Source: Methylohalomonas lacus (GTDB lineage: Bacteria > Pseudomonadota > Gammaproteobacteria > Methylohalomonadales > Methylohalomonadaceae). Taken from it: a stretch of DNA of 64,000 bases. A model generated the notes under the pieces. It had not been told where the DNA came from, ran no database searches, and saw only the letters and a program-made list of their open reading frames with translations. Location: positions 186,001-250,000 of the forward strand of contig NZ_JANUCT010000001.1 of the NCBI RefSeq assembly GCF_024808875.1. The letters are read 5' to 3'. The position numbers and the translations under genes are program-made. Below are positions 1 to 13,875 of this stretch, one piece after another; positions within the stretch are counted from its first letter, which is position 1; each line of letters begins with the position of its first letter.

Positions 1-2
1 AA

Positions 3-695
3 GAAGTTAGAATTTTCAAGGGATTTTGCCGCAGGGATCCATCTAACGAAAGTCAGCCGGCAGACTTTTCGGGGAATCGAATGTGGTTGCCGGCAAGCGA
101 GGTGATCGGAGAGGGTATATTCCTAGAGTTTAATCCCCGCACCATGTGTGCATGGGAATCTAATAACGGTGAACAGCTGGAAGAATGGATAAAGGTGCAG
201 GTAAAAATAGCCTTGGCCAAGAACTACATGGATAGGCTGCAATTACATCCGTCTCCTCGGTTCGTGATGATGCACACGCTTGCGCACCTGCTGATCAGGG
301 AGCTGGCATTTGAATGCGGCTATTCATCGAATTCCATAAGAGAGCGGATCTACATCGCTTCTTCAGGCACAAGCCCGGGTGGAATATTGCTTTACACGGC
401 GGATTCCGATTCCGAGGGCTCGATGGGGGGGCTGGTCGAGCTAGGTTATGTGAATAGATTCTGGCCCATCTTTACCAGCGCAGTCAGAAATGCACTCTGG
501 TGCTCATCGGATCCCGTGTGCCGGGAAGCCAAGGAGCAGGGATTATTTGGGCTGAACAAGGCCGCTTGCCACGCATGTGCTTTGGTAGGAGAAACGAGCT
601 GTGTGCACGGCAACAGCTTCCTGGACCGGTTACTTGTATCAGGCAGCAGTGACAATGAGATACCGGGTTACTTCCAAGAACTTATAGATTGCTAA
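3..695 (+). CDS. DrmB-like DUF1998 protein, C-terminal part
   Basis: The reading frame is open from the first bases of the window, so this is the C-terminal ~230 residues of a longer protein. The visible part matches the DUF1998 domain of DrmB (a DISARM anti-phage component) and related helicase-associated proteins. It has the WLPASEVIGEGIFLEF entry, the helix MMHTLAHLLIRELAFECGY, the serine-rich SSNSIRERIY and SPGGILLYT strands, and a cysteine cluster (CSSDPVC, then CHAC, then ETSC) that fits a zinc site. DUF1998 proteins work with helicases in phage defence. The helicase gene starts 11 bases downstream. Which DUF1998 subfamily it belongs to cannot be settled without the N-terminal half. Confidence 0.85.
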   Translation, partial: EVRIFKGFCRRDPSNESQPADFSGNRMWLPASEVIGEGIFLEFNPRTMCAWESNNGEQLEEWIKVQVKIALAKNYMDRLQLHPSPRFVMMHTLAHLLIRELAFECGYSSNSIRERIYIASSGTSPGGILLYTADSDSEGSMGGLVELGYVNRFWPIFTSAVRNALWCSSDPVCREAKEQGLFGLNKAACHACALVGETSCVHGNSFLDRLLVSGSSDNEIPGYFQELIDC

Positions 696-706
696 CGTAG
701 CGTACC

Positions 707-1963
707 ATGCGATTACCGAGCCTGTCTGACCTAGACAAGGAACAAGAACGAATTTACATGAATGCGCCACTCGACGGTGCCATTCTAGTTACTGGCCCGC
801 CAGGTTCTGGTAAGACCGTCATGGCCTATTACCGCTGCGAGGTGTTGGCACAGCGTAAACAAAGTATCAATCTCTTGATGTATAACCGAGTGCTACGAAA
901 GTATGTTGGAGAGAGTAACAACAAGCATGTAGATGTAGACACGATGGAAACTTGGCTGGGAAATTGGTGGCGGAAAGCTTTTAATAAGGGGGTTCCCAGA
1001 CAGTCAAATCAAGGAGGATCAAGATATAGCCCAATCGACTGGGATCGAGTGCTCACCCACGCACTCGAGAATAGCTCAAATAAAGGAATAATGGAAAAGT
1101 TAAAATGGGGGCACCTTGTCATAGATGAAGGTCAAGATTTCCCAATGGAACTATACAGGGTAATGTATTCTATCGGAATGGCAGCAAACCCGGGTAATGA
1201 GCCCTGTATTACAGTATTTGCCGATGATAACCAGCAATTGAATGAAGCCCTAAATGCCACTACGTGGCAGATTAGGAAGTCTCTCTGCATTAATAAAGAA
1301 CCCAAGAGAAACTTGTCACTTACTAAGAATTACAGAAACACCCTTCAGATACATAACTTTTCCACGTATTACAAAATATTCGAAGCAGAGGCGGATCCCC
1401 CTCAGAAAGAGGGGGAGCTACCCACGGCGCGAATATACAAGAGTGATAGCGATTGCATGGATAACGTAACAAGATTGTGCCGTCTGTCGACAGGGAAAGA
1501 AATCGGTATCATAGTACAAACAACCAAGAGAAGGGTGAAGCAAATCTATAATAAAATCTCAACTAGGCTAAAATCTAGCAATTTTAAGATACAGGCTTAT
1601 ATGAGCGGTGATAGGGTTCACAGTGATTCGGCACTCACTTTTGATACTAATGACACGATAACCATAGTACATACAAATTCTGCGAAGGGTTTGGAGTTTG
1701 ACGTGGTATTCTTAATGGACATGCAAGATGTAGGTGTTCATGACGATAGGCTCGAGCAAGCAGCAAAAAGCGTGTACATGCTGAGCTCACGTGCTAGAGA
1801 GCAACTGCACTTATGTTACTTAGTTGACGAGGGCGATGAGTTGCCTGAATCGATCGGCTTGCTACCCCCTTTCTCTAACAATCTCTACAAGGTGTATCCT
1901 AACGATTACACCGATAAGGTGAATAAGATAGCAGGCTCGCTCGAGTTACCCAGGCATACATAG
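707..1963 (+). CDS. Compact UvrD/PcrA-like SF1 helicase
   Basis: This 418-residue protein has the SF1 helicase motifs in order: Walker A GPPGSGKT near residue 31, DEGQD (motif II) near 140, ADDNQQLNE (motif III) near 172, the KNYRN arginine motif near 208, TNSAKGLEFDVVFL (motif V) near 325 and SSRARE (motif VI) near 363. It is much shorter than UvrD or PcrA (~720 residues) and has little room for 1B/2B subdomains, so it may be a DNA-dependent ATPase or translocase rather than a processive helicase. It starts 11 bases after the DUF1998 gene and is probably co-transcribed with it. The role in a defence complex is inferred from context. Confidence 0.85.
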   Translation: MRLPSLSDLDKEQERIYMNAPLDGAILVTGPPGSGKTVMAYYRCEVLAQRKQSINLLMYNRVLRKYVGESNNKHVDVDTMETWLGNWWRKAFNKGVPRQSNQGGSRYSPIDWDRVLTHALENSSNKGIMEKLKWGHLVIDEGQDFPMELYRVMYSIGMAANPGNEPCITVFADDNQQLNEALNATTWQIRKSLCINKEPKRNLSLTKNYRNTLQIHNFSTYYKIFEAEADPPQKEGELPTARIYKSDSDCMDNVTRLCRLSTGKEIGIIVQTTKRRVKQIYNKISTRLKSSNFKIQAYMSGDRVHSDSALTFDTNDTITIVHTNSAKGLEFDVVFLMDMQDVGVHDDRLEQAAKSVYMLSSRAREQLHLCYLVDEGDELPESIGLLPPFSNNLYKVYPNDYTDKVNKIAGSLELPRHT

Positions 1964-2001
1964 CCTTGTCCAGAAATAGCGCATGAAAAAGAGAGATATA
2001 C

Positions 2002-3642
2002 ATGGCGAGCAAAAAGGATAAGAAACAGGCAACAATGTTTCCAGACGAGGTAGATGTCAAAAATGGCGAGGTTACGATGTTGTACGTACCTGTTTCCATA
2101 TCCTACCTGGCACGTAACCTCGCACTGTGTTCCCTTAGTGCCAGAGAGGGTGACAAGCTTACCGGTTATACGGAAACCGTGCCCAGTGAGGATCTGGAGC
2201 ACTGCGCGCTTGATGAAAGTCAACCAGTAATCGTCAGGGTCTCAGTACCACAAGGCACGGCAACCGATCAAAACGGCGCCTACGAGATTAAGGCTCCGCT
2301 TCCATGCTCCTCTATCAAGGAAATTGTGTTCCAATCTGAGGACATGAAAAACGAGCTCGGTGACAGGCTGAGAATGTTTGCTGATGTGCCCCTGCACCTG
2401 TTCGACTTAGCTGTGAGGCCGGGATGTTTTGATGACGCATTCACGTTCGACCAAGAGCGCATGGCAGGAGACGCAAACGAGTCATCCGTACACAATCCTG
2501 TCATGGACGAACTTGGTAAGCTAGGTGGAGTCCTGGCCTCAATAAAGTTCATGTTACAGAAAACCAGAGACCACGATGAGCATGCCGAGAAGTTACTGTC
2601 GACGTTGTCATCCCGCGACGAGCTCGGCATAAATGCCTACGAAGTAGCAGTGGGCACGGACAACAGGAACTACGAGGAACTGGATGCACTTGCGTGGAAA
2701 AGCGTCTGGAATATTGTCCGGGAGAGAGGTATTAACAGGGGGGTTACGCCTAATCACATATTGTCAGGGGCGGATAATCTTACTGGCGAGTTGTCTCAGC
2801 AAAACGCGGAGAAGATACACAAGTGGATCGATTACGTTAAGCGTATACAGGATGGTGATAAGGAGATACCTACTAGGCTCGACGATTCGTCCACACCTGC
2901 GTTGCGGGCAGCCTTAGCATTCATGTTCACGAAGAAAATTGAAGCAATAGAATCATTTCAGAACGATCATCGGCTTGGTGCCACCGTCCAATTCCTGGTA
3001 TACGTCCTTGGAGGGTTGTACGAGGGGCTCGGACGTTTCCACGCGGGGCTAAAGGGTAAGACTCGGGAGGAACTAGATACGTTTAGCGAAATGCTCATTG
3101 ATCTTTACTCCGGTAAACCCAAAAAACTGAGTTATTCGGAGATAGATTCCACCGAATATTATTCTACGGTAGACACCGTTTACTACGGTGATAAGTGTTT
3201 CCTGTCACGTGATATTAAACTGGACTCTTCTCACTTGATGCTCATTGCCCTTGCCAGAGGGCAGAATTATAGGGTGGGCTATAACGTGGAGGCAGCTTCC
3301 TATTACATTGAACCACTGGGCGGGGGAGAAAAGGAAAAGAAGCAGAAAATATACTTCGAGATTCTGGACAAGAAACCCGGGGATGAAACTAGTATCGTCC
3401 GATACTACACGCCGTTACGCAAGCTGGGCAAGAAGGGGTTGCTTAAGAAAGAGTATGAGGAGTATCTTTCCGGTGCCTGGCAATCAGGTCTAGCATTGGC
3501 CATCACCGAAATATCAGGTGCCAACTATCTGGTCGTCTATTGGCTCCAACCCATTAGCACCTTCGACGACGAAGAATTTCAATACCTGGTATCACGTTTC
3601 TCCAATTTCTATTCCTATTACGAGGTAGATACTGATATATAA
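2002..3642 (+). CDS. Unrecognised 546-residue protein in the defence operon
   Basis: I do not recognise a family. The ATG lies 38 bases after the helicase gene and follows a GAGAGAT ribosome-binding stretch. The protein is soluble, acidic, and has no signal peptide, membrane segment or obvious nucleotide-binding motif. The N-terminal ~130 residues look beta-rich, the middle (about 150-350) is helical and charged, and the C-terminal third (about 370-546) alternates short strands rich in Tyr and Phe, ending YYEVDTDI. It carries no HEXXH, PD-(D/E)XK or HKD signature that I can see. Its place between the helicase and the glycosylase suggests a system-specific subunit. Protein-level composition is unremarkable, so it is not obviously broken. 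Confidence 0.8.
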   Translation: MASKKDKKQATMFPDEVDVKNGEVTMLYVPVSISYLARNLALCSLSAREGDKLTGYTETVPSEDLEHCALDESQPVIVRVSVPQGTATDQNGAYEIKAPLPCSSIKEIVFQSEDMKNELGDRLRMFADVPLHLFDLAVRPGCFDDAFTFDQERMAGDANESSVHNPVMDELGKLGGVLASIKFMLQKTRDHDEHAEKLLSTLSSRDELGINAYEVAVGTDNRNYEELDALAWKSVWNIVRERGINRGVTPNHILSGADNLTGELSQQNAEKIHKWIDYVKRIQDGDKEIPTRLDDSSTPALRAALAFMFTKKIEAIESFQNDHRLGATVQFLVYVLGGLYEGLGRFHAGLKGKTREELDTFSEMLIDLYSGKPKKLSYSEIDSTEYYSTVDTVYYGDKCFLSRDIKLDSSHLMLIALARGQNYRVGYNVEAASYYIEPLGGGEKEKKQKIYFEILDKKPGDETSIVRYYTPLRKLGKKGLLKKEYEEYLSGAWQSGLALAITEISGANYLVVYWLQPISTFDDEEFQYLVSRFSNFYSYYEVDTDI

Positions 3643-3669
3643 TGTGGATAAAAAGCGGAGTGAGATGTA

Positions 3670-4347
3670 TTGATCCGTGTTTCAGAAAGAAGGATTACCT
3701 CGTTCAGGAATAAAATCTACAATTGGTACCTAGTCAATGGTCGGATATTCCCGTGGCGAACGAGTGACGCCGACACCTACCGATTAATCGTGACAGAGAT
3801 ACTCCTGCAGAGAACTAGGGCAGCAAACGTTGCAGCCTTCTATGATGATTTCTTTAGCCATTATCCGGATTGGTATAGCCTGACCAACGCGGACTCCGAG
3901 GGTTTGGAGAGCTTTTTAAGGCCGCTGGGTATTTGGCGACGCCGTACAGCAACACTGGTAAACCTCGCCAATGCCATCATGGAAATGGATGGCCGAGTAC
4001 CCCACGATAGGGTAGAAATTGAAAAGCTCCCTGGCGTGGGCCAGTACGTGGCCAACGCGATCCAGTTACTGGCTGCCGGCACCCCGGCCCCACTGCTCGA
4101 CGCTGGTATGGCGCGGGTCTTGGAAAGGTATTTCGGACCACGGACGCTCGCAGACATCCGTTATGACAAGTACCTACAAGATCTAGCGTGGCGAGTTGTT
4201 TCTTGTGATAAAGCTATTGAGGTTAACTGGGGCATACTTGATCTAAGTGCAGTTCTTTGCAAGAACAGAGAACCCTTATGTAGTCAATGTCCTCTCAAGA
4301 AAGGCTGCAATTATTATCAAGGAAACGTTTCAGAAAGACTCGTCTAG
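3670..4347 (+). CDS. MIG-type T/G mismatch DNA glycosylase (HhH-GPD, Fe-S)
   Basis: 225 residues from a TTG start; an in-frame ATG is absent nearby, and the ATG at 3665 is stopped at once. It is a helix-hairpin-helix glycosylase: FPWRTSDADTYRLIVTEILL near residue 27, the hairpin LPGVGQYVANAI near 118 and LLDAGMARVLERYFG with the catalytic Asp near 140. A C-terminal Fe-S loop has spacing C-X6-C-X2-C-X5-C (CKNREPLC, CPLKKGC). Endonuclease III has Lys after the hairpin and MutY has Ser; here it is Tyr, as in Mig.Mth, the plasmid-borne T/G glycosylase that repairs deaminated 5-methylcytosine beside a restriction-modification system. Last gene of the operon. Alternative: a MutY relative. Confidence 0.85.
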   Translation: MIRVSERRITSFRNKIYNWYLVNGRIFPWRTSDADTYRLIVTEILLQRTRAANVAAFYDDFFSHYPDWYSLTNADSEGLESFLRPLGIWRRRTATLVNLANAIMEMDGRVPHDRVEIEKLPGVGQYVANAIQLLAAGTPAPLLDAGMARVLERYFGPRTLADIRYDKYLQDLAWRVVSCDKAIEVNWGILDLSAVLCKNREPLCSQCPLKKGCNYYQGNVSERLV

Positions 4348-4764: not shown

Positions 4765-5640
4765 TCAGGCTTCACATCGCTGGCCCCAGATGAGGTTCGC
4801 CCAGCCGGGCTCGTCGATGAAGGGATTGCGGTTGCCCTGGATGGCATGGACCCGGTCATTGCGCCGGCGCTCGAAGTCGGTCGGTCCGTACTGGTTGTGC
4901 CAGTCGAGCAACGTGCACAGTCGGCCGATGCGGGGCTCATCGGTCAGCTCGGTGCGGTTGACGAGTTCCAGATCTGGCATGTCGCCGTCACCCTCGTAGC
5001 GCACCGCCATGTAGAAGAGCATCCGGGCGACCTGCCCCTTGGCGCGGTCCGGCGGCTCGAAGGACGCACGATCGCGGTCGAGCCGGGCCGTGGTGGCTAC
5101 CTCGCTGCCATCGGACAACCGGTCCATGACCCGCTCACCGCCATCGTCGTAGCCGTAGTTGCGGTGGGCACCGTTCAGACTGCGATCGGCCGGGCGCAGG
5201 TGATGCAGATCCGTGTAGCCGTCCTGGGACTGGCGCGGGAAGCCGCGTGACTTGGGCCAGATGTGCTCGCGGGACCACTTGTCAGGCCCGCGTCCGCCGC
5301 GGTACGCCATATCCAGATGCCGGAAGTCATCCAAGTACAGCAGCTGGACCAAGCCGCATTCCGGCCGGTAGTCCGGGCAGGCCGAGTCGGTGTAGAGCAG
5401 TGCTTCCCAGACATCCCGGTCCTCGCCATCCAGCCAGTCGTCGTTGCCGCTGCGGGTATACGGCAGGACCTCATGGTCGCGGATGATTGCGTGCAGGGCC
5501 TCACGCAGTGCCGCTCCACTTTTGCCGCGGGCATCCTCGTAATAACCGCTGGGCGGGTCGGCCTGCAGCCCGCCGGCGAACAGGCCGAGCAGAACAACGC
5601 CAATCAGGATCCGTATGGATTTGAAGGCAACATCACGCAT
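4765..5640 (-). CDS. Secreted endonuclease I family nuclease
   Basis: About 291 residues. Signal peptide: basic start, then a hydrophobic segment ending near GGLQADPP. The endonuclease I (EndA/Vvn) beta-beta-alpha-metal core is clear: [13 protein letters not shown] with the catalytic His, then DLHHLRPAD, with NRNPFIDEP near the C-terminus. These enzymes are periplasmic or secreted, non-specific, Mg-dependent nucleases; [16 protein letters not shown] and PECGLVQ could supply disulfide cysteines. The ATG at 5640 overlaps the end of umuC by 8 bases, so it appears translationally coupled to an SOS polymerase, which is unusual. A GTG six bases upstream is a less likely start. Confidence 0.88.
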
Positions 5641-6919
5641 GGGCACATACCAGGCCGTTCCAGTCGGTCGTAAAGGTGGCCGTCAGGTTCTCGCGCCGCA
5701 TCCGCCAGCCTTGCGTAAAACCTGCCGAGGCCCGCCGCAAACAACCCTGCCCGTAGCGCCTATTCAGCTGATCGACCAGATCATTCAGTCGGTCGGTCGC
5801 ATAGTGGTCATTATATGTATCCCCGTACAGGTCGGCCTGGATCTGATCGCCATCGATTAAGTCCATTAGCATCACCCCCGCCTTCTTGTACCGATAGCCG
5901 GGCCGATAGATTTTCCGTAATCCCACCAGTGCCTGTCGGGTCAGGGCACCGGTATCGCTGGCTGGTTGCGCCAAGCGTGTGACGGCCCCGTTATGGTACT
6001 GCGGCTCGCCGGGGATGAACGGGTTAGTCTCGATGAACACCTGCAGCGCGCCGCACACGCTGCCCTGGCCCCTGAGTTTTTCGGCGGCGCGGGCGACATA
6101 GTCGGAGACCGCCTCTTCCAGCTCACGCTGCTCGGTAACGGGCCGGCCGAAGGACTTCGACGAGACGATCTGCTGTTTCGGCGCAGGCTCGCTCTCCAGC
6201 GGGTAGCAGGCGATGCCGTTCAGCTCTCGGATGGTGCGTTCCATGACAACGCCGAAGCGGGCGCGCAGCGTTGCTGCCGGCTCCTGTTTCAGGTCGAGCA
6301 CGGTCTGAATGTTGTAACCAGCCAGGTGCTCGGTCAGGCGACGACCCACGCCCCAGACCTCGCCGACCGGCGTGTCGGCCAGCAATGCATCAACCTGTCT
6401 CGCATTCAGCACCGAGAGATTACAGACACCATTAAAAGCGGGACGCTTCTTGGCGTAGTGATTGGCAAGTTTCGCGAGCGTCTTGCTCGGACCGAGGCCG
6501 ACGCACACCGGGATGCCGATCCACTGCTTCACCTGCTCGCGTAGCTGCTGGCCATGAGCCGTGAGGTCCCAGTGCTCGAAGCCACTAAAACGCAGGAACG
6601 ACTCGTCGATGGAGTAGATTTCCTGGTCGGGGCTGTACTGGCCGATGAGCGTCATCATGCGCCGCGACATGTCACCATAGAGCGTGTAGTTCGACGACAG
6701 CGCTACCAGGCCGTGGCTTTGAGCCAGGTGGCGGATCTTGAACCAGGGCGCGCCCATGGCAATGCCCAGTGCCTTGGCCTCGTTCGACCGGGCCACGGCA
6801 CAGCCGTCGTTGTTCGACAGCACGACGACGGGTTTGCCCTCGAGCGCCGGGTTGAACACCCGTTCGCACGAGACATAGAAGTTATTGCCGTCGATGAGCG
6901 CATACTGGGTGGTCATCAT
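5633..6919 (-). CDS. umuC: DNA polymerase V catalytic subunit UmuC
   Basis: A 428-residue Y-family translesion polymerase, of normal length for UmuC (~422). The N-terminus [16 protein letters not shown] carries the first catalytic Asp, and [13 protein letters not shown] carries the catalytic Asp-Glu pair near residue 105. [16 protein letters not shown] and the HhH region [10 protein letters not shown] follow, with the little-finger domain and the C-terminal DUF4113-type tail ([12 protein letters not shown]) intact. It is normally made with UmuD on SOS induction. Here umuD is not adjacent: an unknown gene and a small zinc-ribbon gene lie between them, all on the same strand. The two start ATGs are at 6919 and 6916. 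Confidence 0.95.
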
Positions 6920-6939
6920 GGTCGCTGAATGGCTCGTGG

Positions 6940-7122
6940 TTAATGTTCGGGTTCATTCCGGCCTTGCCCGGGGTCGCGTTTCAGCCAGCGGCGCACGCAG
7001 CTATACAGGCTTTCCAGGACTTTTGTCGGCGGCCTGGGTGGTGCCATACGCAGCTGTTGCTGGCAGGCTGTGCAGTAGCACTCACCGACGCAGACCAGCC
7101 GATGACAGTTGCGGCAATACAT
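6940..7122 (-). CDS. Small cysteine-rich (zinc-ribbon-like) protein
   Basis: 60 residues, beginning 148 bases after the unknown gene at 7271-7999 and ending 20 bases before umuC. The first 20 residues hold seven or so Cys/His in CRNCH, CVGEC and CTACQ patterns, a plausible single zinc ribbon, followed by a basic Pro/Arg-rich tail. No family is recognised. Its position in the SOS cluster, same strand and tight spacing to umuC, is the main argument that it is expressed. It could be a small DNA- or polymerase-binding protein, or a spurious frame; no homology can be claimed from sequence alone. Confidence 0.5.
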
Positions 7123-7270
7123 GGTGGCGACTCCGTCCGTGGGTGAAGCGCCACTCTAGCCAGTCATACCCACCTACGCGTCCCCCATATGGGGTATGTA
7201 CGTCCCGTGATGAGCGGGTGCGATACTGCCTCGCAGGTCGCCCCTGGCTACGGATTCAGCGAACCGGCCA

Positions 7271-7999
7271 TCAGCGCGATCGCGGCAATTGGGCCCGCAG
7301 CGAGTCGAAAATGGCGGGCCTTAAAACCTTGCGGTACATCATGTCGATGTCCTCCAACAGGATCGCCCGGATCTCGTCACTGTAGAGCACCTGGTTGAAT
7401 GCCTCATCGGCACTGATCGCTTCGCCCTGTTCATCGGCGATAGGTTCGTCTGTGTTGTAAATGTCATCGACCAGGCCCCGCACGAGGTGCTCCAGCCTGA
7501 AAAGGCTCTTGCCGATGGCCTCATGATAGGTACTTACGGGCACAATCAGTCCGCCGTCGCCCTCCTTGTCTGCCCGCGTAACCCGGTCGTGCATCAGCGC
7601 ATAGCCGCCTTCCTCGAAGCGTTGCTTGTAGAGTTCGAGTGTTACCTCGCTGAAGACGACGCCCTCATCGTCGCCTATATAGCTGACTTCCGAGTCATCG
7701 GCCAAATGCCAGATGACCAGATAGGCATCCCCGGCCGCCAGTTCGTACTCGAGCGGGTCATGGCCGTGTTCGAGTTCGTCTGAACCCGGTTCGTAAAACG
7801 GGTACGTCCTGTAAATCGCGTCTCTGCTGCAAACATACAGGAGCTGCCCTTCGTCATCACCGACGCAGTACGGATAATCACCGTGCGTCTGGCCCGCTTT
7901 CTCGAGCAGCGCCAGGTAATCAGGGGCATGTTGCAGGGCCGTTTCCTGGCGCTTTCTGAGGCGCACGAGGTACGCTTCGGCAATTGAATCAATATCCAT
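7271..7999 (-). CDS. Unrecognised 242-residue acidic protein in the SOS cluster
   Basis: I do not recognise this protein. It is acidic and soluble, without signal peptide or membrane segments. Visible features are an aromatic, Asp-rich N-terminal half (YPYCVGDDEGQLLYV, GDAYLVIWHLADDSEVSYI, GDDEGVVFSEV), which could be an open beta-sheet fold, and a helical C-terminal third (about 165-242) ending in basic residues. It lies between umuD (8105) and the zinc-ribbon gene and umuC, reading the same way, which suggests it is part of the SOS operon. No catalytic motif can be named. Confidence 0.7.
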   Translation of the reverse strand: MDIDSIAEAYLVRLRKRQETALQHAPDYLALLEKAGQTHGDYPYCVGDDEGQLLYVCSRDAIYRTYPFYEPGSDELEHGHDPLEYELAAGDAYLVIWHLADDSEVSYIGDDEGVVFSEVTLELYKQRFEEGGYALMHDRVTRADKEGDGGLIVPVSTYHEAIGKSLFRLEHLVRGLVDDIYNTDEPIADEQGEAISADEAFNQVLYSDEIRAILLEDIDMMYRKVLRPAIFDSLRAQLPRSR

Positions 8000-8104
8000 A
8001 CGACATCCCCTCGAATCAGTCCTTGTGGCCTATGGCCATTCTGCCTGTCGCTTTAACTACCGAGCCAGCAGGGCCTTCATTAGTGACATCCTGCGCACGA
8101 CGGC

Positions 8105-8689
8105 TCAGAACGAATGGATGGCGTGCTTGACCACGCCCCAGATGTCACAGCCAGTCTCCGGATCCAGCTTTATGGGCGCGTAGGCCGCGTTCTCGGCATG
8201 CAGCCAGACCTCGCCCTTGTGCTTGATGAGCCGTTTGACGGTCAGCTGACCGTCGATGACGGCGAGCACGATGTGCCGGTGCTTGGGCTCGATGGCGCGG
8301 TCCACGACCAGGGTGTCGCCGTCATGGATCCCGGCGTCGATCATGGAGTCACCTTTCACGCGCACGAAGAAGGTCGCCTCCTTGTGCTGAATGAGCTGTT
8401 CGTTCAGGTCGATGGTCTTCTCGACGTAGTCCTCGGCCGGCGACGGGAAGCCGGCCGGCACCCGGAAGGCGAACAGCGGCCGCCGCAGGCGTTGCGGATT
8501 GGCCGCCGGCGCCAGCAGCTCGGCCGTGTCAGCCGCGGCGCGGCCCTGCCGGTTGCGGTACGCGGCCAGGACCGCCTGCAGCTCGGGCACCAGGCTGGTC
8601 GGTACCCGAACCGGGCGCGTCGGTTCGCCGTAGTCGTTGCTGCCGGGCTTGCGGCCGGCACCGGGCCGTTGGCCCCCGCGTGGACTCAT
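8105..8689 (-). CDS. umuD: UmuD-like S24 autopeptidase with N-terminal extension
   Basis: About 194 residues against ~139 for E. coli UmuD. The C-terminal part is a typical UmuD: AGFPSPAEDYVEKTIDLNE contains the Ala-Gly self-cleavage site, GDSMIDAGIHDGDTLVVDR the catalytic Ser, and AVIDGQLTVKRLI the catalytic Lys. The extra ~60 residues start with a Gly/Arg-rich GGQRPGAGRKPG and continue as PVRVPTSLVPELQAVLAAY, which resembles a ribbon-helix-helix strand and helix. Similar long UmuD proteins are known in mobile elements and in Acinetobacter, where one acts as a repressor. ATG 8689 is preferred because GGAGG sits 5 bases before it. A 24-base near-palindrome lies directly upstream. Confidence 0.9.
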   Translation of the reverse strand: MSPRGGQRPGAGRKPGSNDYGEPTRPVRVPTSLVPELQAVLAAYRNRQGRAAADTAELLAPAANPQRLRRPLFAFRVPAGFPSPAEDYVEKTIDLNEQLIQHKEATFFVRVKGDSMIDAGIHDGDTLVVDRAIEPKHRHIVLAVIDGQLTVKRLIKHKGEVWLHAENAAYAPIKLDPETGCDIWGVVKHAIHSF

Positions 8690-8696
8690 GTACACC

Positions 8697-8701
8697 TCCG
8701 T
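8697..8701 (-). promoter_or_regulatory. Ribosome-binding site of umuD
   Basis: GGAGG on the minus strand, 5 bases before the ATG at 8689. It decides the start in favour of that ATG over the GTG at 8695, which overlaps the site's downstream spacer. Confidence 0.7.
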
Positions 8702-8703
8702 TC

Positions 8704-8727
8704 TCTGATTCCCGTACGGTAATCAGA
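8704..8727. promoter_or_regulatory. 24-base near-palindrome before umuD
   Basis: The arms TCTGATTCCCGT and ACGGTAATCAGA are complementary at all but one position pair, centred at 8715/8716. It lies between the SRAP gene and umuD, abutting the umuD ribosome-binding site, where an operator would block transcription. It is not a LexA box (no CTGT-N8-ACAG). A likely ligand is the RHH-like N-terminus of the UmuD protein itself; this is inference. Confidence 0.5.
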
Positions 8728-8745
8728 AATGGCGGCCGATGGCAA

Positions 8746-9417
8746 TCACTCACCGCCCGGGGCGCCCTGCGGCTGGACGAGGTCGGGACTGTCGTTGCGG
8801 GGATTGTTCACGCGGGTACTGATGGGATGGTGATGCCAGGCCGTAATGGGCGCTTCGAGCAGTGTCTGGCACTCGGCCCGTGATGTGGCCGGGTCCAGCC
8901 AGGCCGACCAGACCCGCTCGGGCAGCGCCAGCGGCATGCGCGGGTGGAGGTCGGCCACCGCCTCGGCCGCCGGGCCGGTGATGATGGTATAGGATTCGAA
9001 GGGCTCGGCACCGTCACCGGCCCAGGTCTCCCAGAGACCGGCGAAGGCGAAGAGCTCGCCGCCCTGGTGGATGTAATACGGCTGCTTGCCGTCCCCCGTT
9101 TTGCGCCACTCGTAGTAGCCGTCGGCCGGGACCAGGCAGCGGCGCTGGCGGAAGGCGTCGCGGTAGAACGGCTTGTCGGCGACCGTCTCGACCTTGGCGT
9201 TAATAGTGGAATACTGGGTCTTGGGCTCCTTCAGCCAGTGCGGGACCAGCCCCCACTGGAAAAGGCCCAACTGGTAGCCGGCAGCAGTGGCATGAATGAT
9301 TGGATTAGCCTGACCGGGAGCAATATTGTAGCGCGCCTCCAATTCAGGCAAAGTTACTTTGAGGGCTTGCTCGAAGCGGGTCAGTTTACAGCTGGCCAGT
9401 GTGTAGCGTCCGCACAT
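8746..9417 (-). CDS. SRAP domain protein (HMCES/YedK family)
   Basis: 223 residues, beginning MCGRYTLAS so that processing of Met exposes the catalytic Cys2, which forms a covalent thiazolidine with abasic sites in single-stranded DNA. The other active-site positions are present: ARYNIAPGQ (Asn), GYYEWRKTG (Glu) and DLHPRMPLAL (His). The length matches YedK (222). The family shields abasic sites at stalled forks and is often SOS-regulated; here a LexA box lies 15 bases upstream of the start. It is the first gene of the minus-strand SOS cluster, 57 bases ahead of umuD. Confidence 0.94.
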   Translation of the reverse strand: MCGRYTLASCKLTRFEQALKVTLPELEARYNIAPGQANPIIHATAAGYQLGLFQWGLVPHWLKEPKTQYSTINAKVETVADKPFYRDAFRQRRCLVPADGYYEWRKTGDGKQPYYIHQGGELFAFAGLWETWAGDGAEPFESYTIITGPAAEAVADLHPRMPLALPERVWSAWLDPATSRAECQTLLEAPITAWHHHPISTRVNNPRNDSPDLVQPQGAPGGE

Positions 9418-11479: not shown

Positions 11480-11986
11480 ATGGACAGAAAACTTACTAAA
11501 AAGCATATAGAACTAATATCCAGAACAATTGGCAATATTAAATCACCTAACTATGAAAAATTACTAAATGTATTAAAAGGAAAAGAAGAGTTTGAAGACA
11601 TAACCTTAGATACAACTGATCTTAAAAACATTCATAAAATTATAAATAATTATGATACGGCCGAAGAGGCTGCAGCAGACATTTTAAATAATGAAGACAG
11701 CAGCCTCGAATATATTGCTAATAATATAAATGAGATTTCAAGCAATAAACCTGTCAGCAACAAAACATATAACCAAACAAATTCATCCAATCCTACTATA
11801 CATGAATCTATGAAAATCAAGGATTACGTCATAAAGTCATCAAAGACACAAGCTGGTTTGTGTGAAGAAGTTATGAATGCCATGAAATTCGGCTGGGTGC
11901 CTCTGGGTGGGGTGAGTTCTGCAGCATTTGGGATGTCGCCTGTAGCTGGTAATCAATACATACAAGCAATGGTCAAATACGAATAA
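11480..11986 (+). CDS. DUF1737-like domain protein, AT-rich
   Basis: 168 residues. The N-terminal ~105 residues are helical, charged and Asn-rich (a low-complexity linker near 90-105). The C-terminal ~50 residues, KSSKTQAGLCEEVMNAMKFG then WVPLGGVSSAAF and YIQAMVKYE, have the pattern of DUF1737, a small sticky domain often found at the end of bacterial proteins. The gene is far more AT-rich than the chromosome, showing recent transfer. It ends 11 bases before the next gene, with which it forms a pair. Function is unknown. Confidence 0.75.
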   Translation: MDRKLTKKHIELISRTIGNIKSPNYEKLLNVLKGKEEFEDITLDTTDLKNIHKIINNYDTAEEAAADILNNEDSSLEYIANNINEISSNKPVSNKTYNQTNSSNPTIHESMKIKDYVIKSSKTQAGLCEEVMNAMKFGWVPLGGVSSAAFGMSPVAGNQYIQAMVKYE

Positions 11987-11997
11987 GGATATAAATT

Positions 11998-12978
11998 ATG
12001 TCTGATTTGAATAACGATATATTAAATCCAGAAACCAACTCATTAGAATCTATAGCGCTTTTAGTAGGCATAATTTATACGATTGGAGTTCTGGATGAAG
12101 CCAACTCTTCAGAATCTGAGATAGAGGAGCGAAATGATATTGTATTTCATGCAATTGTGCCTGCACTGTATACATTATACTTTCGTATAAAAAATCCAGA
12201 AAAAGTTGGGGCTGACATCATCGAGCCTCTTATGCCTCTTATGGATGGGATTTCTTCCGAGCCTGGCACCATTCCTGAAAGGAGAGAAGTTTTTAGACGT
12301 AGAGATATGATGGAAATAATTAACCATCTTTCAACTGAATTAAACGTAGATAATTTCGAATTCATAATCACCCAGAGTTGTGATTATATCAAGCATCCTG
12401 TATTACGTACTGCGGCTTGTATATATTGTGTTGAAGTTGCTTCAGCTGGCGACGGCATCGGAAAAATCGAAGAAGGAGCCTTGAATTTCATTACGCAAGA
12501 ACTCAACTTACAAAATAGTGATGGCACTTTGAATGAAGTAGCAATAGGTGCTACACGAATGTTCCTAGCATTGGATGACGTTCCCGAACATGACAATTTT
12601 GGGCATCTGAACCCAAAAGTAAGGCAAAAGATAGAACAAAATTATAACCAGATTGAAGAAAAAGATGCCTTTGATGAACTTTTCGAGGAGATGGAAAAAG
12701 CTCGTGAAGAAGCTAAAAATGAAGCAAGAGCTAATTCAAAATGTTTTATTGCAACAAGTCTTTTAGGTAGTACTCATCCGGACTTGGATGTCTTAAGAAA
12801 TTTCAGGGATACTGTTCTAAGTAAAGCAGCTGCTGGCAGGCTATTCATAGATTGGTATAACGAAAATGGAGAGTATTTAGCTACCCGTATAAAAAGAAAT
12901 TCTCTAGCGTCTATAATAATTAGGCAGCTAATTCTTAAGCCTATTATTTTCATAATAAAAATGACTAAAAGAAAATAG
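11998..12978 (+). CDS. CFI-box protein with possible TerB-like middle domain
   Basis: 326 residues, same AT-rich codon use as its neighbour. Around residues 135-175, RTAACIYCVEVASAGDGIGK then EEGALNFITQELNL, is reminiscent of TerB-type helical domains. Near residue 250 it has KCFIATSLLGSTHPDLDVLR, then FRDTVLS and a hydrophobic, basic C-terminus: this is the CFI-box C-terminal region found on many otherwise unrelated bacterial proteins and proposed as a sorting or anchoring signal. The hydrophobic stretch near 300-320 followed by KMTKRK would suit membrane attachment. The TerB assignment is weak; the CFI-box is clear. Confidence 0.75.
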   Translation: MSDLNNDILNPETNSLESIALLVGIIYTIGVLDEANSSESEIEERNDIVFHAIVPALYTLYFRIKNPEKVGADIIEPLMPLMDGISSEPGTIPERREVFRRRDMMEIINHLSTELNVDNFEFIITQSCDYIKHPVLRTAACIYCVEVASAGDGIGKIEEGALNFITQELNLQNSDGTLNEVAIGATRMFLALDDVPEHDNFGHLNPKVRQKIEQNYNQIEEKDAFDELFEEMEKAREEAKNEARANSKCFIATSLLGSTHPDLDVLRNFRDTVLSKAAAGRLFIDWYNENGEYLATRIKRNSLASIIIRQLILKPIIFIIKMTKRK

Positions 12979-13129: not shown

Positions 13130-13753
13130 CTAGTCACCCCAGAATCCATTGAACCGTTGGGCATTCAGCTCAGTGTAGCGCACCGTGTGCTGGATATTGC
13201 GGTGGCCCAGGTAGTGCTGCAGGGCCCGGGTATCCTGGCCGTCGTTGGCCAGCTTAAACCCGCAGGCGTGTCGCAGCATGTGTGGATGGACCGGGAACGG
13301 CAGGCCCGCGGCCTGACCGGCCCGCGCGACCAGCTTGCGGACGTTTGACGCCGTCATCGGGCCCCGGCGCTCGGTCACGAAGACATACGGCGTGTCCGGG
13401 TAGTCCCGCTTCAGCCGCCGCAGAGCGCGTAGTTCGGGGCCCCGAAGCGGGTGGGTAGACGGGGTGCCGTTCTTCAGGCGGGTGATGTGCAGCAGGCCCT
13501 GCTTCAGATCGACCTGCTCCCAGCGCAGGCTGACCAGCTCCGAGACGCGTAGGGCGTGACGGTAGGCCAGCAGGATCAGCGTGGTGTCCCGGTGGCCATG
13601 TCGGCCCTGGTTGCCAGCGGCCTTCTGCAGCGCCTGGACCTCGTCTTCGGTCAGGTATTCGCGGCTGCGGAGCTCGGCGTTTGTCGGCCGGCGCGGCAAC
13701 TTTCCCGAAAACGAACGCTGGTTGAGCGGGATAACCTTCGCTTCAGCTCCCAT
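13130..13753 (-). CDS. Small FimB/XerC-like tyrosine recombinase
   Basis: 207 residues from ATG 13753, preceded by GGGGAGG 9 bases away; the frame extends upstream but that start is better. Catalytic residues are all present: Arg in HALRVSELVSLRW, Lys in ITRLKNGTPS, HxxR in HPHMLRHACG, His in YLGHRNIQHT and Tyr in VRYTELN. The length is that of FimB/FimE (about 200) and lacks a full core-binding N-terminal domain. Such enzymes invert or excise short segments. An inverted repeat just upstream (ACTTTCCCG/CGGGAAAGT) and a distant copy of one arm at 4644 could be its sites. Confidence 0.92.
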   Translation of the reverse strand: MGAEAKVIPLNQRSFSGKLPRRPTNAELRSREYLTEDEVQALQKAAGNQGRHGHRDTTLILLAYRHALRVSELVSLRWEQVDLKQGLLHITRLKNGTPSTHPLRGPELRALRRLKRDYPDTPYVFVTERRGPMTASNVRKLVARAGQAAGLPFPVHPHMLRHACGFKLANDGQDTRALQHYLGHRNIQHTVRYTELNAQRFNGFWGD

Positions 13754-13776
13754 TGTGGCTGTCCTCCCCGTCGTGA

Positions 13777-13808
13777 ACTTTCCCGTTTTGGGGTGATTTC
13801 GGGAAAGT
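13777..13808. repeat. Perfect 9-base inverted repeat before the small recombinase
   Basis: ACTTTCCCG at 13777-13785 and CGGGAAAGT at 13800-13808, spacer 14 bases. It lies 24-55 bases upstream of the recombinase start. Its right arm, extended to TTTCGGGAAAGTC (13797-13809), recurs exactly at 4644-4656. It could be a recombination site or an autoregulatory operator. Confidence 0.55.
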
Positions 13809-13833
13809 CGGTTTGGTTTATGGCTGTGTCTTA

Positions 13834-13856
13834 TATGCGTTACAATGTAACGCATA
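13834..13856. promoter_or_regulatory. Perfect 23-base palindrome before the RHH gene
   Basis: Arms TATGCGTTACA and TGTAACGCATA flank a single central A. It ends 19 bases before the RHH start at 13876 and contains TACAAT, a plausible -10 element, so binding would block transcription. Autoregulation by the RHH protein is the simplest reading. It also lies between that gene and the divergent recombinase, which could be co-regulated. Confidence 0.65.
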
Positions 13857-13875
13857 CTTTCACGAGGTGCCAACC

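Follow-up and report, generated by a model that had tools for sequence, protein, structure and literature searches.

A seven-gene operon of Methylohalomonas lacus, which begins beyond the left edge of the 64,000-nucleotide stretch of DNA analyzed here (the window; contig positions 186,001 to 250,000) and ends inside it, is, judged by its sequence, a real, recurrent, and conserved variant related to DISARM, whose defensive function we infer. The evidence that can be read from the DNA and from its relatives is the genes themselves, their motifs and order, their recurrence, the interchange of a MIG-type glycosylase with Vsr, and the linkage of both to a methyltransferase. Reading 16 kb leftward of the window (stretch L002; window coordinate = L002 coordinate − 16000) revealed three genes ahead of base 1, encoding an m5C (C5-cytosine) methyltransferase (MTase; L002:8758-10008), a NERD-domain SF1 helicase (L002:10035-11720), and DrmA (L002:11720-14872). 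They are followed by drmB, which encodes a DUF1998/MZB protein and has its 3' part at window positions 1 to 695 (to L002:16695) in an open reading frame (ORF) open at the left edge; by a compact SF1 ATPase of 418 amino acids (SF1c; UvrD/GajB/HelD-like) at 707 to 1963; by a 546-amino-acid protein, here called X, at 2002 to 3642; and by a MIG-type HhH-GPD mismatch glycosylase of 225 amino acids with a TTG start at 3670 to 4347. The longest drmB ORF opens at L002:14812, and the gene starts near window position −1128, with a probable ATG at L002:14872 that overlaps the drmA stop by 1 base. All seven genes lie on the plus strand in the order m5C MTase–NERD-SF1 helicase–DrmA–DrmB–SF1c–X–MIG with spacings of 26, −1, about −1, 11, 38, and 27 bp, and a single operon is therefore likely. 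An earlier note on this DNA, made from the window alone, had described a four-gene operon; the four genes that it named are collinear with gaps of 11, 38, and 27 bp, in agreement with its 11 to 38, and the count rises to seven with the three genes upstream. Its expectation of DISARM-type partners to the left was borne out by the C5-MTase, NERD-SF1 helicase, and DrmA genes that precede drmB, in place of the unrelated housekeeping genes that would have spoken against it.

The core shared with DISARM consists of DrmA and DrmB as separate, adjoining genes. DrmB matches the NCBIfam model NF038324 (DrmB_fam) with 419 bits against a cutoff of 240, a Pfam MZB model, and PADLOC DrmB with 292 bits; DrmA, which carries the motifs TGGGKT, IQDELH, and QATSRVGR, scores 630 bits against PADLOC DrmA and 788.6 bits against NF038325 (DrmAS), below the cutoff of 950. 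The MTase contains the motif PCQGFS and matches the PADLOC DrmMII profile with 164 bits, compared with 283 bits for a generic type II MTase. In the operon and the ten flanking genes scanned, no match to DrmC or another PLD protein, to DrmD, or to DrmE was found, and none of the class 1 set (DrmD, DrmMI, and DrmC) is among the PADLOC matches of the operon proteins. The PADLOC definitions of DISARM require DrmC plus DrmE/DrmMII or DrmD/DrmMI (PMC9252829), and because DrmC, DrmD, and DrmE are absent the operon belongs to neither defined class; DrmC is dispensable and missing from many DISARM operons (PMC9142583). The earlier note had supposed that a methyltransferase, an SF2 helicase, or a PLD nuclease lay out of view: the MTase and DrmA are indeed upstream, whereas the PLD nuclease is absent where scanned and a NERD nuclease-helicase is present instead.

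Relatives of the operon were collected through an alignment of DrmA proteins, which yielded 80 genome-contig loci, and 97 stretches in all (genome-contig, plasmid, and genome loci) were annotated with custom-built profiles. Among these annotated loci, a single-sequence search with the X protein of the window recovered L052 (E value of 2.9e-11), L056, L057, and L105, each at the equivalent operon position, and an iterative profile search found 24 loci with X in genome contigs, plasmids, and searched genomes. An IMG/VR contig (L188), with the order DrmA-DrmB-SF1c-X-<MT, provided an independent 25th. SF1c was called in 22 of the 24 loci, and X lies directly behind it in every one of these, with an overlap or gap of at most about 80 bp apart from one start-codon artifact; DrmB is found about 1.1 to 1.5 kb upstream of X in 23 of the 24. 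Where SF1c or DrmB was not called, the probable cause is the use of longest ORFs as gene calls in DNA of high GC content. Loci with the SF1c-X pair span Pseudomonadota, Acidobacteria, Chlorobi, Bacteroidetes, Actinomycetota, Planctomycetes, and Deinococcus. The earlier note had proposed co-occurrence of the gene families as a check, and X does stand behind DrmA-DrmB(-SF1) in the 24 genome and plasmid loci as well as in the IMG/VR contig; each neighboring family likewise comes back in a constant order in related loci, which speaks against a chance arrangement. Searched for with the window protein alone, X was found only in its own genome among 369 genomes of the class and on no plasmid, and BLASTP against Photobacterium hypothetical proteins, which iterative profiles later joined to the family, gave nothing significant; since the class-wide search met only the genome of origin while the DrmA route found relatives, X seems to evolve too fast for single-sequence searches.

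A FastTree phylogeny of DrmA placed all 24 X loci inside a single clade of 64 rows that has full local support, and the seven class 1 DISARM DrmAs formed a separate clade of their own. The X-bearing loci are not a single clade within the larger group (seven changes), which indicates several gains or losses of X, and many actinobacterial members of the clade have kept SF1c, with X not detected. Eight loci of a gammaproteobacterial type (L098, L102, L103, L105, L111, L118, L126, and L129) carry DrmAB-SF1c-X, mostly together with the NERD-helicase, and have no C5-MTase within the 20 to 23 kb read, which shows that methylation is not essential to this core and is either optional or supplied elsewhere. 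In L098, L103, L105, L111, L118, L126, and L129, the NERD-helicase gene is shifted behind X. Other arrangements include an uncultured Erythrobacter locus, in whose DrmAB-SF1c-X operon a DruH-like protein (L066:17797-21126; PADLOC DruH3, 521 bits) separates X from the MTase-Vsr pair, and actinobacterial loci, such as L071:3728-8395 and L122:3736-8454, with a protein of about 1,570 amino acids that has TmtA-like and PbeA-like parts and precedes NERD-helicase/DrmAB. A second cluster, made up of a C5-MTase, a hypothetical protein, and a DUF2357 (McrC-type) protein, adjoins the DrmAB operons of L037 (1-3637) and L045 (1-5276), the latter with Vsr.

The NERD-helicase of the M. lacus operon has an intact PD-(D/E)xK motif (EID...EVK), read directly in the protein. 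A pattern for this motif matched 17 of the 20 NERD proteins of X loci, the match in Marinobacter L051 being doubtful, and the three that escaped it, including the M. lacus protein, show the motif by eye. SF1c contains Walker A (GPPGSGKT) and Walker B (VIDEGQD) motifs, with Walker motifs present in its family; it matches SF1/UvrD, GajB, and HelD-type models and is homologous to the gene at the equivalent position in Photobacterium, Deinococcus, and Streptomyces loci. Two Photobacterium plasmids have no NERD-helicase in the stretch read and carry DrmAB-SF1c-X alone, which points to these four genes as the core of the system.

The X protein of the window has no match in Pfam, PADLOC, or NCBIfam, consistent with the earlier note, which had called it unrecognized. 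Structure prediction suggests an N-terminal domain with an ADP-ribosyltransferase (ART) fold like that of DarT/2CompART, a helical domain, and a small alpha/beta domain. AlphaFold2 models of the window protein (pLDDT 75, pTM 0.71) and of its relative in L102 (pLDDT 85, pTM 0.86), two proteins that are about 16% identical, were both matched first to DarT by Foldseek against the PDB (4 of 4 and 8 of 8 top matches), with a probability of 1.00 but E values of 2e-3 to 7e-3 and target TM-scores of 0.4 to 0.5; for the L102 model DarT is followed by Tpt1, also of the ART fold, and then weakly by DraG/ARH3. Four X relatives match Pfam 2CompART weakly (best score 25.4 bits, under the cutoff of 27; best E value 1.8e-5), and a genome search with this Pfam model returned no match, the controls likewise giving none. 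Profile-profile comparison of X with DarT gave P values of 0.004 to 0.005 over 25 to 29 columns, compared with 0.2 to 0.77 for six unrelated profiles. In this weak alignment the DarT strand with the catalytic glutamate, QAEFLV, lies opposite CLWLPA in the L102 protein, which corresponds through a shared APLP motif to AYEIKA in the window protein, with no conserved glutamate, and the HITH motif of DarT is TN in most members and unrecognizable in the window. The predicted N-terminal domain is thus ART-like and probably inactive, and because the alignment does not show the catalytic glutamate of DarT and the likeness of the helical domain to DraG/ARH3 is weak, a pseudoenzyme or noncatalytic sensor or adaptor is more likely than an active ART. 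A reading of the helical domain as ADP-ribosylhydrolase (ARH)-like was set aside, with no support from sequence (P = 0.67). On a plasmid of Azospirillum ramasamyi, a gene annotated as a DarT ssDNA thymidine ADP-ribosyltransferase (L040:14810-15412) directly follows a UvrD-DrmA-DrmB-NERD operon and is a second link between DrmAB and ADP-ribosylation.

MIG is an HhH-GPD protein whose best solved relative is 1KEA ("possible G-T mismatches repair enzyme"), at 132.6 bits versus 101.8 bits for the best MutY. A GVGQY motif with tyrosine after GVG-X, the conserved catalytic aspartate, and the C-X6-C-X2-C-X5-C motif of a 4Fe-4S cluster are all present, the C-terminal domain of MutY is absent, and among solved structures the protein is most like Mig.Mth; in the tree of the family MutY is not cleanly separated from the MIG group, and PADLOC lists the family as a Type II nicking endonuclease. 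The M. lacus genome encodes its own Nth and MutY elsewhere, so MIG comes in addition to these. Vsr is a nuclease and MIG a glycosylase, and these unrelated folds have the repair of T:G mismatches in common. Of the 24 loci with X, only two, the window and Marinobacter L051, have MIG next to it, in both cases behind X, and Vsr takes this place in Chlorobium L056, Hymenobacter L059, and Xenophilus L092. Where a relative is linked to an MTase and has a mismatch enzyme, that enzyme is in most cases Vsr. Of the 81 DrmAB loci that span at least about 14 kb, 26 of the 49 with a C5-MTase have Vsr or MIG, compared with 1 of the 32 without (23 have the MTase alone and 31 neither), for a Fisher p of 8e-7 that is optimistic because the loci are related. 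Close plasmid homologs of MIG lie beside C5-MTases in five of the six loci read, among them pFV1 mig itself, with type II endonucleases in two. Since Vsr and MIG interchange and occur together with the C5-MTase, MIG probably repairs T:G mismatches left by deamination of the system's own m5C. Two class-2-like loci (L125:5723-8269 and L110:6546-9158) combine Vsr and a C5-MTase with DrmAB, a NERD-helicase, and a protein that weakly matches DrmE, so NERD and Vsr are partners beyond the X clade as well.

The GC content of the operon genes is 0.35 to 0.50, compared with 0.61 to 0.66 for neighboring host genes (cinA-like and endonuclease I). The earlier note had placed the operon on an integrase island, which found no clear support, since the tyrosine recombinase gene (13130-13873) has a host-like GC content of 0.633 and lies 8.8 kb from the operon, outside the low-GC block; minus-strand genes for endonuclease I, UmuC, an S24 peptidase (UmuD/LexA-like), and SRAP (window positions 4765-9417) intervene next to the operon. 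Just before the recombinase gene, two plus-strand ORFs at 11480 to 12978 have a GC content of 0.352, far under that of their surroundings, and the 326-amino-acid protein of this pair has no Pfam or PADLOC match. To the left, a 299-amino-acid protein with no assigned family (L002:6379-7278; GC, 0.504) is encoded between the cinA-like gene and the operon, and about 1.5 kb without clear genes separates it from the MTase.

Several known systems resemble the operon in part. With class 2 DISARM (DrmA, DrmB, DrmC, DrmE, and DrmMII) it shares a split YprA-type DrmA, a DUF1998 DrmB, and an m5C MTase, but it lacks DrmC and DrmE and adds the NERD-SF1 helicase, the compact SF1 ATPase, X, and MIG; with class 1 (DrmD, DrmMI, DrmA, DrmB, and DrmC) it shares the DrmA-DrmB core but has neither DrmD, the adenine methyltransferase, nor DrmC, and its DrmA belongs to a separate clade. 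ARMADA type II is similar in its YprA helicase, GajB-like UvrD helicase, methyltransferase, and Vsr-type domain; it differs in having BrxHII and PglX-type genes, neither family being among the matches listed for the operon proteins, and in that DUF1998 is typically part of the helicase chain, whereas here it is a separate gene. The operon is not a Druantia system (DruE with DruM/F/G or DruH): for DruE there is only a marginal match of 15 bits, made by DrmA, and the match to DruM models is a general one of the MTase. Mig.Mth of Methanothermobacter plasmid pFV1, with 34% identity to MIG, is likewise a T:G glycosylase of the HhH-GPD family and adjoins an m5C restriction-modification system, but its partner is a type II pair, and that of MIG is a DISARM-like operon. 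X, despite the predicted fold of its N-terminal domain, departs from DarT/2CompART in its weak scores, in having no evident catalytic glutamate, and in its fusion to helical and C-terminal domains. A survey of YprA helicases (Bell et al. 2025, PMC12458937) describes many uncharacterized classes within the DISARM-like clade, of which the operon is presumably one, and its main text, as searched, mentions neither a glycosylase nor this gene set; in the literature searched on DISARM with a glycosylase, NERD, or Vsr, we likewise found no description of the seven genes together.

X could instead be an active DarT-like effector that ADP-ribosylates DNA or protein, with its helical part as a counteracting or regulatory ADP-ribosylhydrolase-like domain and phage replication blocked by ADP-ribosylation rather than by a nuclease alone. 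The lead of DarT for both models, with Tpt1 and weakly DraG/ARH3 behind it, the 2CompART matches, and the Azospirillum DarT gene all fit such an effector, but the weak alignment shows no conserved glutamate opposite the catalytic one, HITH is TN in most members and unrecognizable in the window, the best 2CompART score stays below the cutoff, and the ARH likeness has no support from sequence, so that we regard it as unlikely. We are more doubtful still of a separate class of DISARM-like systems, with a DarT-type ART that is fused to an ADP-ribosylhydrolase-like helical domain and cooperates with DrmAB, so that ADP-ribosylation of DNA or phage protein, or its sensing, takes part in immunity, and with an antimutator enzyme of its own. 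MIG, and Vsr with it, might also be the restriction effector, excising bases from or nicking invader DNA and thereby leaving AP sites or nicks for the helicases and the NERD nuclease to enlarge. Base-excision restriction enzymes exist (PMC10273834), ARMADA fuses Vsr-type domains to YprA helicases as predicted active nucleases (PMC12458937), and the PADLOC assignment agrees; such a role nevertheless appears improbable, given that two unrelated folds share T:G repair next to m5C MTases, interchange, and occur together with the MTase, and that neither is in view in many X loci.

The short DrmA, DrmB, and m5C MTase are class 2-like, and the MTase matches DrmMII profiles, as expected if drmC and drmE had been lost from an ordinary class 2 DISARM and SF1c, X, and MIG were its passengers. 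This is nonetheless very unlikely: SF1c and X recur in 24 to 25 diverged loci across phyla and inside one DrmA clade, the loci examined that have weak DrmE matches (L110 and L125) branch elsewhere, and the DrmA score falls short of the NF038325 cutoff. Least credible of all is a DNA repair cluster of MrfA/YprA-like helicases and a glycosylase with no part in immunity, although MIG is a repair enzyme, the adjoining UmuC, S24, and SRAP genes are of SOS type, and one branch of the YprA/MrfA helicase family does function in repair (PMC12458937). The same survey gives split DrmA and DrmB genes as a trait of the DISARM branch, and patchy distribution, low GC content, and carriage on plasmids and viral contigs also argue against a repair cluster.

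A horizontally acquired DISARM-like restriction operon remains our preferred reading, and we consider the following scheme as a whole somewhat more probable than its failure. The m5C methyltransferase would mark host DNA, and DrmA-DrmB, by analogy with DISARM, would be loaded onto DNA that is unmethylated and has free or single-stranded 5' ends, and would then translocate; the ATPase of DISARM DrmAB is stimulated by unmethylated DNA and lowered by 5mC (PMC9142583). SF1c and X, a fixed pair by gene order, may provide a further motor and a nucleotide- or DNA-sensing adaptor, and the PD-(D/E)xK nuclease of the NERD-helicase would degrade the invader in place of the absent PLD nuclease DrmC. MIG would act as the housekeeping partner of the MTase, removing T from T:G after deamination of the system's own 5-methylcytosines, the task of Vsr in relatives. 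Defense itself, the nuclease role of the NERD protein, sensing by X, and repair by MIG are the steps that we infer.

A DISARM-like architecture that recurs and includes a nuclease-helicase of its own bears on how DISARM may destroy DNA where DrmC is missing or dispensable. That MIG and Vsr replace each other at a single place in the operon suggests that defense systems based on m5C bring along their own antimutator. Finally, X, by its predicted structure, would be the first link of DrmAB systems to an ADP-ribosyltransferase-like fold.
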